Source: Candidatus Methanomethylophilaceae archaeon (GTDB lineage Archaea; Thermoplasmatota; Thermoplasmata; Methanomassiliicoccales; Methanomethylophilaceae). Taken from it: a DNA stretch of 45,626 bases. Made by a program: the position numbers and the translations under genes. Under the pieces are notes generated by a model. It saw only the letters and a program-made list of their open reading frames with translations, had not been told where the DNA came from and ran no database searches. Each line of letters starts with the position of its first letter. Within the stretch, counting starts at the first letter, position 1. The stretch is taken from assembly GCA_944321505.1 (NCBI GenBank), contig CALULN010000002.1:1-45626 (forward strand). Reading direction: 5' to 3'. Below, one piece after another: positions 25,638 to 31,309 of this stretch.

Positions 25638-27235
25638 TCAGAGGTCCTTCAGGGCTCCGATGCTCACGTATCCGATTGCACCCTCGGTGTTCTGCACCTG
25701 GGTCAGGACGGCACCGGTGGAGTTCTGCTCGGGAACGCCCGCCTTCATCTCCCAGCCCTCGAGTGCCTCTCCCATCTTCTCGTCGAAGCACTCTCTGGTA
25801 CCGGAGGAGTCGTCCCTGGCGATGACGGCGATCAGCTTGTCGTTGCCGCCGACCTCCTTCCAGTTGGTGATCTCACCGCTGTAGATCTTGGCGATCTGCT
25901 CGAGGGTCAGGTTCTCGACGCCGGCGTTGTTGACGATGACGGCGACTCCGTCCCTTCCGATCTGGATGGAGGACAGACCCTGAGCGGTCTCCTCGTCCTT
26001 CAGGTCGCGGGAGCACATGCCGATGTCGGACTGGCCGGAGGCGGCATTGCTGGCGCCCACACCGGATCCGCCACCGCTGACGGTGATGCGGATGGTGACG
26101 CCTGCGTCGGCGTACTCGGCCTCGTAGGCCTCGACCAGCTTGTTCATGATGGGCTCGATGGTGGTGGAGCCGGAGATGTCGAGGATGATGTCCTGAGTGG
26201 GAGCGGTGGTCTCGGTCATCTGGTCGGCGCCAAGGGGCACGAACTCCTCTGCAAGGACTGCCTGTCCCTTCTCGCTGGTGACGTAGTTGAGGAAGTTCTG
26301 CACCTCATAGGGAGCGTTCTCCAGCTCGCCCTTGATGCAGACGATGAGGTTCCTCTGGATCTCGTAGGTTCCGTTGGTGACGTTGTCCTCGTTGGCCTCG
26401 ACGTTGTTGACGTCGAGGGCGTAGGTGCCGGTGGGTCCGTTGAGGTCCTTCAGGGCCCCGATGCTCACGTATCCGATGGCGCCCTCGGTGTTCTTGACCT
26501 GGGTCAGGACGGCGCCGGTGGAGTTCTGTTCGGGCACCCCGGATTTCATCTCCCATCCGGGCAGGGCTGCCTCCATCTTCTCGTCGAAGCACTCTCTGGT
26601 ACCGGAGGAGTCGTCCCTGGCGATGACGGCGATCAGCTTGTCGTTGCCGCCGACCTGGTTCCAGTTGGTGATCTCTCCGCTGTAGATCTTGGCGATCTGC
26701 TCGAGGGTCAGGTCCTTGACCCCTGCGTTGTTGACGATGACTGCCACCCCGTCCCTTCCGATCTGGACGGAGGACAGGCCCTGGGCGGTCTCTTCAGCTT
26801 TCAGGTCGCGGGAGCACATGCCGATGTCGGACTGGCCGGACGCGGCGTTGCTGGCTCCGACTCCGGATCCTCCGCCGCTGACGTTGATGCTGATGGTGAC
26901 TCCGGCATCGGCGTATTTCGCGGTGTAGGCCTCCACGAGCTTGTTCATGATGGGCTCGATGGTGGTGGATCCAGAAATGTCAAGGGTTATGTCCTGGGTA
27001 GGAGCGGTTGTTTCGGTCATCTCGTCCTCGGGGAGGGGCACGAACTCCTCTGCGAGGACTGCCTGCCCGTCGGCGCTGGTGACGTAGTTGAGGAAGTTCT
27101 GCACGTCGTAGGGAGCATTCTCCAGCTCGCCCTTGATGCAGACGATCAGATTCCTCTGGATCTTGTAGGTGTTGTTGGTGACGTTGTCCTCGGTGGCGGC
27201 CACGCCGTCGATGCTGACGGCGTATGTGCCCTCCG
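25638..27235 (-). repeat. 801-bp tandem duplication within pstS
   Basis: Two copies of a unit of about 801 bp make up nearly the whole gene. For example, the stretches starting at 25638 and 26439 match with only a few substitutions, and those around 25780-25850 and 26581-26651 are almost identical. The high DNA identity, including third codon positions, suggests recent duplication or ongoing gene conversion. Confidence 0.85.
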
Positions 27236-27329
27236 AAGAAGACTTGTCGTCCTTGAGGAGCAGGTATCCGCCCACTCCCGCGATGGCGACGATCACCACA
27301 ACGATGATTGCGAGTATCTTCTTGTCCAA
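25638..27329 (-). CDS. pstS: Tandem, circularly permuted phosphate-binding protein PstS
   Basis: The 563-residue protein has an N-terminal membrane helix (about 5-25, no lipobox Cys). After it come a PstS C-terminal tail (about 35-99), a PstS body (113-296), a second tail (303-366) and a second body (380-563). The bodies hold the phosphate-site motifs SGSTTIEP, SGGGSGVGASN, SDIGMCSRD and RDDSSGTRECF. Both tail and body recur at 267-residue spacing (801 bp), with long near-identical DNA stretches, so the duplication is recent or homogenised. The order tail-body-tail-body is a circular permutation of normal PstS. The start is TTG (complement of 27327-27329), set by GAGGTG at 27338-27343. It heads pstS-pstCA-pstB-phoU. 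Confidence 0.9.
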   Translation of the reverse strand: MDKKILAIIVVVIVAIAGVGGYLLLKDDKSSSEGTYAVSIDGVAATEDNVTNNTYKIQRNLIVCIKGELENAPYDVQNFLNYVTSADGQAVLAEEFVPLPEDEMTETTAPTQDITLDISGSTTIEPIMNKLVEAYTAKYADAGVTISINVSGGGSGVGASNAASGQSDIGMCSRDLKAEETAQGLSSVQIGRDGVAVIVNNAGVKDLTLEQIAKIYSGEITNWNQVGGNDKLIAVIARDDSSGTRECFDEKMEAALPGWEMKSGVPEQNSTGAVLTQVKNTEGAIGYVSIGALKDLNGPTGTYALDVNNVEANEDNVTNGTYEIQRNLIVCIKGELENAPYEVQNFLNYVTSEKGQAVLAEEFVPLGADQMTETTAPTQDIILDISGSTTIEPIMNKLVEAYEAEYADAGVTIRITVSGGGSGVGASNAASGQSDIGMCSRDLKDEETAQGLSSIQIGRDGVAVIVNNAGVENLTLEQIAKIYSGEITNWKEVGGNDKLIAVIARDDSSGTRECFDEKMGEALEGWEMKAGVPEQNSTGAVLTQVQNTEGAIGYVSIGALKDL

Positions 27330-27980: not shown

Positions 27981-29285
27981 TCAGTTCCTGGCTTTCTCCT
28001 TGGACAGGAATGCGCAGATGCATCCGATGACCATCAGGATGACGGCCATCATCCAGACAGTCTCGTACTGGGCGAGGGTCTTGTCCGCGACGATGACACC
28101 TGCGATGGTGATCAGGATGGCGCCTCCCGCGAAGGGGAACAGGTTGAGGGCAGCGGTGGATGTGCCCGCCATTCCCACCGGGAAGAGCTCTTTGATCTGC
28201 GCATAGGACACCACGAAGAATCCTCCGAAGAATCCGAACAGGAAGTTGATCACGTACTGGATGGCGGCGTTGCCGACGAAGTCCGGGTTACCGGCGGTCT
28301 GCCAGATGACGGCCCAGATGATGGTGTACATCACGGTACCGACGATGATGACCTTCTTCCTGGATTTGAGGACCTTGTCGGAGAGCATTCCCGCCAGGGG
28401 GCATCCGACGACCATTCCCACACCGACCATGGTGATGAACATGGCGTAGGTGTTGGTGTCGTATCCGCCGACGTTGCCGTAGAATCCGCCGGCCTGGGAG
28501 GCCTGCCAGAGCATGATGGTTCCGTAGATGCAGAAGAACCATATGGCCAGGGGCCAGAATTTCATTCCGCTGGTGAAGGTCATCTTCAGGGCCTCCATCA
28601 TGGGCACCTGCTGGGAGGTGGACTCGGTGATGGGCTCACCGGTCTCCTCGGAGACGATCTCCTCGATGGAGGGCAGACCCATCTCCTTCGGGTGGTTCCT
28701 GACCAGGACGTAGGTCAGGACACCGATGATTGCGGTGATGGCGGCCAAGACGTAGTAGGTTCCGTCGATGCCCAGGTTCTCCATCATGATGACCATGGGG
28801 GTAGCGGCGGCGATTCCTCCGACGTTACCGACCAGCAGCAGTATGCCGCTCATGGATGCGAACTCGTCCTTCTTGTACCAGACGGCCAGCACCTTCATGA
28901 TCGGGATGTAGATGACTGCCGCACCGATACCGATGACGAACTTACCGGCGATCATCACGTTGAAGTTGTTCATGGGCTCGGCGACCGCACAGAGCACGGA
29001 ACCGAGGGCCAGCAGTATGATGAACACCGAGGCGGCCTTCCTGGGTCCGAATTTATCGGTGAGGATTCCGCTCGGCAGCTGCATCAGCGTATATGCATAG
29101 AGGTACGCCGAAGCCAGCAGAGCAACCGAGGCAGAGCCGACCTGGAACGCGTCCTCCATCATACCGGAGATGGCGCCTCCGGTGGTCCTGTGGAAGTACA
29201 CGAAGAAGTAGGCTATCGCCAGGACGATGAAGATAATCCAGCGGTAGCTGAGCACCTTCTTCTTCTCTTCTGGATTGATTGTCAT
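27981..29285 (-). CDS. MFS transporter of the methyltransferase-linked regulon
   Basis: The 434-residue, 12-helix major facilitator carries the loop 2-3 motif GILTDKFGPRK, and FVYFHRTTGGAIS in helix 1. It resembles organic-anion/sugar-phosphate type carriers rather than drug pumps; the substrate is unknown. The promoter (TATA TATATAGA, complement of about 29353-29361) has the CGAACATGTTCG palindrome 7 bp upstream, shared with the divergent regulator and with the MtaA/MtbA-like gene, so import of a methylated substrate is a reasonable guess. Confidence 0.85.
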   Translation of the reverse strand: MTINPEEKKKVLSYRWIIFIVLAIAYFFVYFHRTTGGAISGMMEDAFQVGSASVALLASAYLYAYTLMQLPSGILTDKFGPRKAASVFIILLALGSVLCAVAEPMNNFNVMIAGKFVIGIGAAVIYIPIMKVLAVWYKKDEFASMSGILLLVGNVGGIAAATPMVIMMENLGIDGTYYVLAAITAIIGVLTYVLVRNHPKEMGLPSIEEIVSEETGEPITESTSQQVPMMEALKMTFTSGMKFWPLAIWFFCIYGTIMLWQASQAGGFYGNVGGYDTNTYAMFITMVGVGMVVGCPLAGMLSDKVLKSRKKVIIVGTVMYTIIWAVIWQTAGNPDFVGNAAIQYVINFLFGFFGGFFVVSYAQIKELFPVGMAGTSTAALNLFPFAGGAILITIAGVIVADKTLAQYETVWMMAVILMVIGCICAFLSKEKARN

Positions 29286-29368
29286 TTGTATTCCTCTATC
29301 GATTTCGGCAAAGACAGGGGAACCAAACCTTGGGCTAGGGATGCCTCAGGAATCTATATATCGGCCTT

Positions 29369-29384
29369 CGCGAACATGTTCGCG
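29369..29384 (-). promoter_or_regulatory. CGAACATGTTCG operator, MFS promoter
   Basis: The perfect 16-bp palindrome CGCGAACATGTTCGCG lies 7 bp upstream of the leftward TATA box of the MFS gene. Two further copies exist at the promoters of the regulator and the methyltransferase. Confidence 0.75.
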
Positions 29385-29391
29385 CTGGAAA

Positions 29392-29403
29392 CCCTATATA
29401 GGG
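29392..29403. promoter_or_regulatory. CCCTATATAGGG palindrome between two operators
   Basis: This perfect 12-bp palindrome lies about midway between the two CGAACATGTTCG operators (centres 21 and 19 bp away). It could be an additional regulator site or a symmetric TATA element. Confidence 0.4.
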
Positions 29404-29410
29404 GTGCTAA

Positions 29411-29422
29411 CGAACATGTTCG
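29411..29422 (+). promoter_or_regulatory. CGAACATGTTCG operator, regulator promoter
   Basis: This perfect 12-bp palindrome lies 8 bp upstream of the rightward TATA box CTTTAATAAA (29431-29440) of the HTH regulator gene, suggesting autoregulation. It is 40 bp centre to centre from the MFS operator. Confidence 0.75.
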
Positions 29423-29460
29423 CATCACGTCTTTAATAAAGCGTTTCATAGTCAGATTGC

Positions 29461-30144
29461 GTGCAGTTCGCTAGGATAGTGGTGGACCGCAGGGTCGACG
29501 GGGAGCGCCCGCTGGGCAACGCGTGCCACATGATCCTGCCCATCAGGGTATGGGACGCAGGCGTCAAGGTAGAAGTGGTCAGATGCTCCTATCTGGGGGA
29601 CGGCATGGGCCGTTCGCTGATCAGGATCACCGATCCCACCGGGCTCAACGGCTCCAGGATAATGATGAACACCACCGGCAGCCTGATGGGGGAGTACTCC
29701 GTCACCAAGGTTTCCAACCATTACTATCTGGCTATCATCCTCAACAACAACTGCCGCTTCGCCCAGCTGATAGCGGAGTCGGGCGTCTTCATGATACGCG
29801 CCATACCCTACGACGACTACGTGACGGAATGGCATCTGCTGGCTCCCAACAACATGATGATCACCAAGCTGGTGGAGCGCATCCGCCAGTTCGGGTACAG
29901 GGTCGAGAAATGCCAGTCCACCAATCTGGAGGCGGAGGGCACACTCACGCCCAAGCAGTACGAGGTGCTGCGCTACGCCTTCGAGAAAGGGTACTACGAC
30001 GTGCCGAAGCGGATCAGCACCGAGGAGCTGGCCGCCCAGTTCGGGCTGTCGAAGTCGACGGTGTCCGTCATAATCAGGAGCGCTGAGCGGAAGGTAATAA
30101 GCCTGTTCTTCAGCCAGAACTCCGACGTCGAGGACATAAAGTGA
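29461..30144 (+). CDS. Bat-like HTH_10 transcriptional regulator
   Basis: The 227-residue protein starts at GTG about 25 bp after its TATA box (leaderless). The C-terminal region (about 160-220: LTPKQYEVLRYAFEKGYYDV...ISTEELAAQFGLSKSTVS) is the HTH_10 domain of bacterio-opsin activator-like archaeal regulators. The N-terminal 150 residues are a ligand- or signal-sensing region of unknown fold. The gene lies between the MFS gene and the methyltransferase gene, and all three promoters carry the same palindrome directly upstream of TATA, the place expected for an activator. It is the natural candidate to bind it. Confidence 0.85.
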   Translation: MQFARIVVDRRVDGERPLGNACHMILPIRVWDAGVKVEVVRCSYLGDGMGRSLIRITDPTGLNGSRIMMNTTGSLMGEYSVTKVSNHYYLAIILNNNCRFAQLIAESGVFMIRAIPYDDYVTEWHLLAPNNMMITKLVERIRQFGYRVEKCQSTNLEAEGTLTPKQYEVLRYAFEKGYYDVPKRISTEELAAQFGLSKSTVSVIIRSAERKVISLFFSQNSDVEDIK

Positions 30145-30184
30145 GAAAAGGGAAGGGGTTTGGAGGATCCCATGGGTCTTCGGA

Positions 30185-31219
30185 TCAGTACCTGTAGGCC
30201 TTGATGGCCTCCACCATGGCGGCCAGGTTCTCCTTCTTGATGAGAGCGGAGAGACCGCATCCGGCGGATATGATGCTGAATCCTGCGTCGGCGCTCCTGA
30301 TGGCGTCGTGCTTGACCTGCTCGGGGGTCCCCTGCAGCAGCGGGTTGACCACGCCGACGTTCCCGATGAGGGCGCATCTGCCGGCGTTCTTCTCCACGGC
30401 CTTGTAGGGGTCGGTCTTCTCCTCGAGGGACAGTCCGTCCGCGTTGGAGGAGATCATCTCGTCCAGCATGGGCAGCATGTTGCCGCAGATGTGCAGGACC
30501 TTCTTGGTCTCCTTCAGGGGCTCGTAGACCCAGCGCAGGTTGGGAGCGGCGAACTCCTGGAACATCTCCGGGGAGATCATATCGTAGGACGCAGTGGGTT
30601 CGGACATCTGGATGGAGTCGAATCCCACGTGGTTCTCCACATACTCGAGCCACATCCTCTCGTACTCGCTGGCGTACTTGGTGAACTTCTTGGTCACGTC
30701 GGGCTCGGTGATGGTCCAGAGGATCAGCGACTCGGTGCCCGCCAGGTGGCCGGCGATGGTGAAGGGCCCGGTGACTCCCAGCAGGGTGGGCAGCTCCTTG
30801 GACAGCGGGTCCTTGTTGATGATCTCCGCCGCCTCGAGGATGACCTTGTTCCTGGGCTTGTTCAGCATCTCCTTGACGTCCATGGTCTCGAAGTCGGGGT
30901 CGGGGTTGCCGTGGAACGGGCTTCCCTTGACCATGGGCGTGGAGTTCTTCTTCCCCAGGTCCACGGTGCCTCCCAGGGCCTCCACCTCGTACGTGAGGCA
31001 GTAGGGGATCCTGATGGACTCCAGCCCCACGAAGGGGTACATGCCCAGACCGAGCTTGGCCATGAGCTTCGCGTCGACGTGCACCTCGGGCCATGCGGCC
31101 CCGGTGTAGTCCATGAGTTCGGTGGTCCCGGCGGTGGTCATCCCGCAGACCGGGGGGCGGTCCGCCTTCTCGCCCTTGATTGCGATTTGGAATCTCTCCT
31201 TGGGTGTGTATTCTGACAT
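30185..31219 (-). CDS. MtaA/MtbA-type methylcobamide:coenzyme M methyltransferase
   Basis: The 344-residue URO-D-fold zinc enzyme has H243-X-C245 (VLHICGN) and C321 (SAGCGLS), the His-X-Cys-X(about 75)-Cys zinc site of MtaA/MtbA that activates coenzyme M. The family moves methyl groups from methylated corrinoid proteins to CoM for methanogenesis from methanol or methylamines; which one cannot be told here. ATG 31219 is chosen over an upstream in-frame ATG because GGAGTGAT precedes it. The gene converges on the HTH_10 regulator and its promoter has the shared operator. Confidence 0.85.
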   Translation of the reverse strand: MSEYTPKERFQIAIKGEKADRPPVCGMTTAGTTELMDYTGAAWPEVHVDAKLMAKLGLGMYPFVGLESIRIPYCLTYEVEALGGTVDLGKKNSTPMVKGSPFHGNPDPDFETMDVKEMLNKPRNKVILEAAEIINKDPLSKELPTLLGVTGPFTIAGHLAGTESLILWTITEPDVTKKFTKYASEYERMWLEYVENHVGFDSIQMSEPTASYDMISPEMFQEFAAPNLRWVYEPLKETKKVLHICGNMLPMLDEMISSNADGLSLEEKTDPYKAVEKNAGRCALIGNVGVVNPLLQGTPEQVKHDAIRSADAGFSIISAGCGLSALIKKENLAAMVEAIKAYRY

Positions 31220-31293
31220 TTTCACATCACTCCGGGTCGATCCCGCTGTCTTTGCCACTGTTTAGCACGGATCTGAGACGGTATAATGGAAAG

Positions 31294-31309
31294 CGCGAAC
31301 ATGTTCGCG
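31294..31309 (-). promoter_or_regulatory. CGAACATGTTCG operator, methyltransferase promoter
   Basis: CGCGAACATGTTCGCG, identical over 16 bp to the MFS operator, lies about 5 bp upstream of the leftward TATA-like ATTATACC (complement of about 31281-31288) of the methyltransferase gene. Confidence 0.75.

Follow-up and report, generated by a model that had tools for sequence, protein, structure and literature searches.

A conserved palindromic operator before carrier, regulator, and methyltransferase genes in Methanomethylophilaceae, with complementary leaders in the carrier and enzyme messages

The window, by which we mean the whole 45,626-nucleotide stretch of DNA analyzed here (Candidatus Methanomethylophilaceae archaeon), contains a real and conserved regulon, in part a variant of a known system, in which one exact 12-bp palindrome, CGAACATGTTCG, precedes the genes for an MFS carrier, an HTH_10 regulator, and an MtaA-like methyltransferase (Table 1). 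We interpret it as a local substrate-induced regulon in which the operator-bound regulator activates its targets and pairing between two leaders couples the corresponding messages, an overall reading to which we assign a probability of roughly 0.6. Methanomassiliicoccales are a source of methane in ruminants and in the human gut, and the literature searched for this order yielded no regulon with a defined operator. The site, the promoter geometry, the likely regulator, and the targets are now defined well enough for an experimental test.

Table 1. Features of the regulon, with positions in the window
Feature	Position	Strand	Basis
MFS carrier, MtpP-like	27981..29285	-	Pfam MFS_1; MtpP search of own genome
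Word CTGTCTTTGCC in carrier leader, complementary to methyltransferase leader	29307..29317	-	Leader comparison, duplex, statistics
TATA-like box, carrier promoter	29354..29362	-	Sequence and spacing over aligned promoters
Palindrome CGCGAACATGTTCGCG, operator on carrier side	29369..29384	.	Sequence search, genome count, Markov expectation
Symmetrical TATA-like CCCTATATAGGG between the two left-hand operators	29391..29402	.	Sequence
Palindrome CGAACATGTTCG, operator on regulator side	29411..29422	.	Sequence search, genome count
TATA-like box CTTTAATAAA, regulator; TSS predicted at or near GTG start	29431..29440	+	Sequence; inference
One-component regulator, ACT/NikR-like N-domain, HTH_10 C-domain, GTG start	29461..30144	+	Pfam, homologues, model
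MtaA-like methylcobamide:CoM methyltransferase, ATG at 31219	30185..31219	-	Subfamily scores, 4AY7 alignment
Word GGCAAAGACAG, predicted 5' end of methyltransferase mRNA	31246..31256	-	Leader comparison, duplex, genome count
TATA-like box CATTATACC, methyltransferase promoter	31280..31289	-	Sequence and spacing over aligned promoters
Palindrome CGCGAACATGTTCGCG, methyltransferase operator	31294..31309	.	Sequence search, genome count

The exact 12-mer is found three times in the window (29371-29382, 29411-29422, and 31296-31307). All three copies are perfect, as an earlier sequence-only reading of this DNA had claimed, and the same 16-mer, CGCGAACATGTTCGCG, surrounds the first and third but not the middle copy. 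That reading also depended on a nonrandom distribution of the palindrome, which is what we find, with five copies in the whole genome (1.385 Mb), three of them at the module, against Markov expectations of 0.003 to 0.008 per window and 0.08 to 0.23 per genome; the pattern read backwards, used as a control, has 0 copies genome-wide. The fourth copy is located within an ORF with a metallo-beta-lactamase fold (C29), and the fifth precedes a gene for a small membrane protein by about 195 bp (C1) and has no obvious promoter role, so both look incidental. Allowing one mismatch gives 13 sites in the genome, and neither an exact nor a one-mismatch site occurs at its corrinoid loci or other methyltransferase loci. 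The expectation that a genome scan would uncover the rest of the regulon thus failed, as no corrinoid or other methyltransferase locus with a good site came to light, and a wider palindrome regulon in this genome was rejected for want of any convincing further member.

Each copy in the window lies directly upstream of a TATA-like box (ATATATAG for the carrier, ATTATACC for the methyltransferase, and TTTAATAAA for the regulator), the placement that the sequence-only reading had described, at a spacing of about 8 to 9 nt that is slightly more than its 5 to 8 bp. Alignment of 50 promoters on the site revealed a fixed layout, CGAACATGTTCG-N9-TTATATA, in which the TATA box (consensus TTATATA) begins at around +10, with an A+T fraction of 0.92 to 0.94 at +12/+13, and the palindrome is mostly 70 to 120 bp upstream of the start codon. 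Decayed palindromes in relatives retain the TATA-proximal half, ATGTTCG. The constancy of the distance between site and TATA box over 50 promoters suggests activation; such an unvarying place just before the TATA box is in keeping with an activator touching the basal factors, and it is compatible with repression too. The UAS of the Bat regulon shows, in general terms, a comparable upstream activator placement (PMC1447603, PMC3184054). As CCCTATATAGGG sits between the two left-hand operators, the regulator promoter of the window is readable in two ways. In the closest relative (G117), the corresponding carrier-regulator interval contains a single copy of CGAACATGTTCG, and the double operator copy is therefore not general.

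Homologs of the regulator were identified in 77 of the 147 genomes of the order. Across the family, carrier and regulator are both present in 24 genomes and both absent from 66, with 2 genomes coding for the carrier only and 10 for the regulator only (Fisher p = 2e-13); G046, a genome 82% complete, has a carrier and no regulator match. In many Methanomassiliicoccales relatives the exact 12-mer adjoins regulator, carrier, methyltransferase, or corrinoid genes, and the same exact word is found at module promoters despite regulators that are only 31 to 43% identical. Every copy of CGAACATGTTCG is at the module in genomes such as G016, G096, G110 to G112, G116, and G117. Exact 12-mers outside the module were discarded as a regulon across the order, being mostly within coding genes (background). 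A few of them precede other genes, like the one in G034 (L047 1501), where an APC-type permease gene follows after about 140 bp; this is possibly another target in the genus of that genome. Relatives from Methanomassiliicoccus (L137, L138, L164, and L171) have a variant site such as CGAACATATCCGCC.

The module appears in two layouts. Layout A consists of the methyltransferase gene, the divergent regulator gene, and the carrier gene (the window, most of genus g1, g12, g5, and G016), while layout B runs (regulator), carrier, corrinoid, and methyltransferase (G032, G096, G102, G044, G083, G045, G047, and G037), with the palindrome before the carrier and before the corrinoid transcription unit and not before the internal methyltransferase gene. 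In the g7 genomes (G045, G047, and G037) the sites are at a module with no adjacent regulator gene, and a regulator homolog is found elsewhere. The corrinoid gene lies inside the module with its own palindrome at, e.g., L079 to L081, L083, L084, L120, and L122. The proposal that the corrinoid protein would be encoded elsewhere hence holds for the genome of the window, where it is outside the palindrome regulon, and not for these many relatives; the description of the module as complete does not survive the absence of a corrinoid gene from the window locus. Three MAGs of Methanothrix, a distant archaeal lineage, have CGAACATGTTCG about 80 bp before a lone MtpP-like carrier with no regulator beside it (L142 4523, L146 1048, and L167 3953), at a TATA spacing unlike that of Methanomassiliicoccales, and contamination of these MAGs is possible.

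The regulator, a protein of 227 residues, matches HTH_10 (PF04967) with 72.9 bits (cut-off, 23.1), and a search of its own genome retrieved only itself. A Pfam scan of the protein found no sensor domain (no PAS/GAF). The sensor domains of Bat are PAS/GAF, and the label "Bat-like" given by the sequence-only reading suits the HTH and not the sensor domain, which is predicted to be ACT-like. In the AlphaFold model (pLDDT 87), the N-domain is ACT/ferredoxin-like and carries an inserted beta region, and the HTH resembles that of sigma-4; VIA-align placed NikR and ACT/NIL domains at the top (Z about 9 to 10.7), the top hits of Foldseek had low TM-scores, and no sequence relatives in the PDB were found at E 0.01. 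The modeled ACT/NikR-like fold seems to be a common arrangement that points to no clear function, and the predicted sensor domain could bind a small molecule or metal. Three cysteines (C22, C42, and C98) are invariant in 27 homologs of the regulator; they could coordinate a metal, or a thiol ligand could react with them. The HTH_10 DNA-binding domain is shared with Bat, which controls bop in Halobacterium (PMC1447603, PMC3184054), and several genes are under UAS-type control there, as in the module of the window. The DNA site is different, and the window regulator has the predicted ACT/NikR-like sensor instead of that of Bat.

Assignment of the three genes to a carrier, an HTH_10 regulator, and a CoM methyltransferase of the MtaA/MtbA subfamily was borne out by Pfam and subfamily scores. 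The methyltransferase passes the cut-offs of the PRK06252 subfamily (305.8 against 244) and of the MtaA/CmuA subfamily (TIGR01463, 254.4 against 235.4) and stays under the equivalog cut-offs (290.9 of 400 for MtaA and 209.8 of 600 for MtbA). It aligns full-length with M. mazei MtaA (4AY7), keeping the H-x-C motif and the distal C, and the three residues matched to that structure (H243, C245, and C321) are invariant in the homolog alignment; in MtaA/MtbA-type enzymes these are the zinc ligands. We rejected it as an MtpA ortholog, as it is 29% identical to MtpA versus about 45 to 46% to a second MtaA-like enzyme of its own genome (C4:37783). Two MtaC-like corrinoid genes of this genome each adjoin an MtaB-like gene, and a solitary corrinoid gene (C4:41460) has no adjacent first methyltransferase. 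Its product is 41 to 45% identical to module corrinoids and MtpC and is, from this similarity, a candidate partner of the window methyltransferase. The solitary corrinoid gene and the second MtaA-like gene are a few kilobases apart in this genome (G000 C4:37783-41795; L109, L114).

The kinship of the carrier links the module to a known system. MtpP of Methanosarcina sp. KYL-1 has the window carrier as its best match in the genome (50%, 1e-138), identity to Methanosarcina MtpP is 48 to 50%, and in the carrier tree both form neighboring groups of one family, with an unsure root. Scanning named genomes with a carrier profile recovered Methanosarcina loci with corrinoid, methyltransferase, and carrier genes and a regulator of about 286 aa downstream, an arrangement that matches mtpCAP-msrH. 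PMC7374477, drawing on Fu and Metcalf 2015, describes mtpCAP-msrH as needed for growth on methylmercaptopropionate. An MtpP-like carrier known from this system means that the module is not wholly undescribed, contrary to what the sequence-only reading had proposed. With mtpCAP-msrH of Methanosarcina acetivorans it shares the carrier family, a single dedicated regulator in the locus and, in relatives, a corrinoid and a CoM-methyltransferase-family protein beside the carrier. It differs in its MtaA-like rather than MtpA-type methyltransferase, in the lack of a corrinoid gene at the window locus, and in its regulator, HTH_10 plus an ACT-like domain here and an unlike protein of about 286 aa in Methanosarcina, with no MsrH-type regulator in the window. 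The palindrome was not found at the Methanosarcina loci. As a separate observation, Desulfovibrio sp. An276 (L179) codes for a carrier about 58% identical, apparently split across two frames, beside a URO-D-type methyltransferase gene, a possible case of transfer to bacteria.

By analogy with mtpCAP-msrH, and given the mtsAB homologs reported in the order, methylated thiol acids appear to be the likeliest substrate class of the module. Papers on Methanomassiliicoccales describe these mtsAB homologs, with the substrate unproved (PMC10673518, PMC4153887, PMC5011839). MtsAB is a pair of a corrinoid and an MtaA-family protein proposed for methylated thiols, like the corrinoid-containing modules, which are probably what those papers annotate as mtsAB; the searched portions of the three papers name no carrier, operator, or regulator.

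The second level of organization is in the leaders. Over 11 to 16 nt, the leader of the carrier mRNA is complementary to what is predicted to be the 5' end of the partner mRNA, that of the methyltransferase or the corrinoid protein, and the window leaders (29285-29334 and 31219-31257) have a predicted duplex of -34.5 kcal/mol. The carrier word is located upstream of the Shine-Dalgarno sequence, and the partner word mostly begins 34 to 42 nt past the palindrome, near the transcription start predicted from the TATA box. The words change from lineage to lineage, e.g., GAAGTCTTTGCCC/GGGCAAAGACTTC in G110/G111, GAGATCCTTGCCC/GGGCAAGGATTTC in G112, CCTTGTTCTGCCA/TGGCAGAACAAGG in G047, GCCTCCGATTGCC/GGCAATCGGAGGC in G096, and TCCTACCCTTGCC/GGCAAGGGTAGGA in G118. 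In the window CTGTCTTTGCC is matched by GGCAAAGACAG, which has one further genomic occurrence, inside a long ORF, and an Rfam scan of the leaders gave nothing near the gathering score. DNA inversion between the complementary words was rejected, the orientation being identical in all linked loci inspected.

Fifteen lineages have 15 distinct words, and the complement follows each change. The best 13-nt complementarity scores 23.1 for cognate leaders versus 14.6 for swapped partners (permutation p = 2e-5, 15 lineages), and the duplex energies for layouts A and B were -34.5 and -32.2 versus -24.9 and -20.4 kcal/mol (p = 5e-5 and 1e-4). Among 14 anchored leader pairs, 91 to 97% of the cells pair, both members have changed in 9 to 12 pairs, and covariation scores 0.77 to 0.81, against 0.22 when shuffled and at most 0.28 when slid; the anchors of this alignment were picked by complementarity, a choice for which the 15-lineage permutation allows. 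Tested against every position of its own locus, the match in a single genome has a typical p of about 1e-3, with relatedness not removed. Within genus g12, two compensatory double changes and a single G-U separate G112 from G110/G111. The long partner leader of G101 (L082) had kept this genome out of the set from which the rule was derived, and it has 13 of 13 Watson-Crick pairs near the predicted position of +39. G016 (L072) and G102 (L081) fit poorly, and G035/G036, in which carrier and corrinoid genes are unlinked, have no long leader complementarity, so linkage may matter. In folding predictions the carrier Shine-Dalgarno sequence is unpaired with a mean probability of 0.29 in the leader alone and 0.66 with the word occupied; blocking other 13-nt stretches raised it as well, to about 0.46 on average among the values listed. 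Methanomassiliicoccus relatives with tandem carrier and methyltransferase genes have instead a strong cis hairpin over the carrier Shine-Dalgarno sequence.

The sequence constraint on the leaders is strong, and from it we infer a molecular meaning: leaders that are complementary and coevolve probably belong to messages that pair. Covarying complementarity between two transcripts, one mark of mRNA-mRNA riboregulation, is present here between transcripts with predicted ends. Coupling of two archaeal mRNAs that frees the carrier Shine-Dalgarno sequence, suggested by compensatory change in some 15 lineages beside an invariant transcriptional operator, is a proposal for which we see even odds; if true, it would be a new kind of archaeal posttranscriptional coupling, the literature searched for mRNA-mRNA coupling having returned bacterial cases only. 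In Listeria, as described in PMC8079631 (citing Ignatov 2020), the protein-coding hly and prsA2 mRNAs pair and couple functional partners, there through contact between a 3' untranslated region (UTR) and a 5' UTR, with an effect on stability. By comparison with that account, the archaeal module would use two 5' leaders and a predicted opening of the Shine-Dalgarno sequence, as suggested by covariation.

Taken together, the regulator would bind CGAACATGTTCG immediately before the TATA box, help to bring TBP/TFB to the promoters of the carrier and methyltransferase genes, and control its own gene too. The MtpP-type carrier would probably import a methylated thiol acid (methylmercaptopropionate, for example), and the MtaA-like zinc enzyme would transfer the methyl group to coenzyme M from a corrinoid protein, encoded outside the palindrome regulon here and inside the module in many relatives. 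The Shine-Dalgarno sequence of the carrier, predicted to be concealed by the carrier leader, would become accessible when the 5' nucleotides of the methyltransferase or corrinoid mRNA pair with the masking strand and open the carrier for translation in trans. The carrier would then be translated only with the enzyme mRNA present, making import dependent on the enzyme message.

The same regulator and operator could also work in the opposite sense, with repression through exclusion of TBP/TFB for as long as no substrate is bound. The operator is immediately next to the core promoter, in g12 the operator of the regulator's own promoter appears between a TATA-like element and the start, which is typical of autorepression, and repression is common among small one-component regulators; yet the carrier, methyltransferase, and corrinoid sites are upstream of the TATA box at a constant distance and best kept in their TATA-proximal half, for which contact with basal factors is the better fit, and we find repression unlikely. 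That the palindrome is bound by a regulator other than the adjacent HTH_10 protein would surprise us considerably more. The g7 modules and the Methanothrix carriers do have sites with no regulator alongside, but the three g7 genomes hold a regulator homolog elsewhere, the co-occurrence of carrier and regulator is highly significant, and the regulator gene itself bears a site in many genomes. About the substrate we are much less certain, and the chance that MtpP kinship is misleading, the carrier being an exporter or the substrate a different methylated compound (methoxylated, a quaternary amine, or other), falls only a little short of even: identity to MtpP is limited, the methyltransferase is MtaA-like rather than MtpA-like, and the tree root is unsure, against which Methanosarcina and Methanomassiliicoccales both have this carrier family next to genes for corrinoid proteins and CoM methyltransferases.

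The leader words, for their part, might act on DNA, as an asymmetric site of a second factor in opposite orientations or as arms of an invertible or structural repeat. They do form inverted repeats in the DNA, their complementarity is confined to linked loci, and G-U shows no clear excess over A-C among the mismatches. This is nonetheless the less likely option because the word changes fast while its complement follows, even within one genus and next to a fixed operator. The single relative orientation in the loci inspected, the lack of a genome-wide set of word copies, and the position of the words at the predicted transcription start and beside the Shine-Dalgarno sequence also argue against it, and we consider it improbable relative to pairing of the two messages.

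Last, near the regulon (25638-27329), the sequence reads as a gene, with TTG as its start codon, for a phosphate-type binding protein whose two tandem halves closely resemble each other; it adjoins a double-length permease gene (667 aa) and PhoU-like genes.
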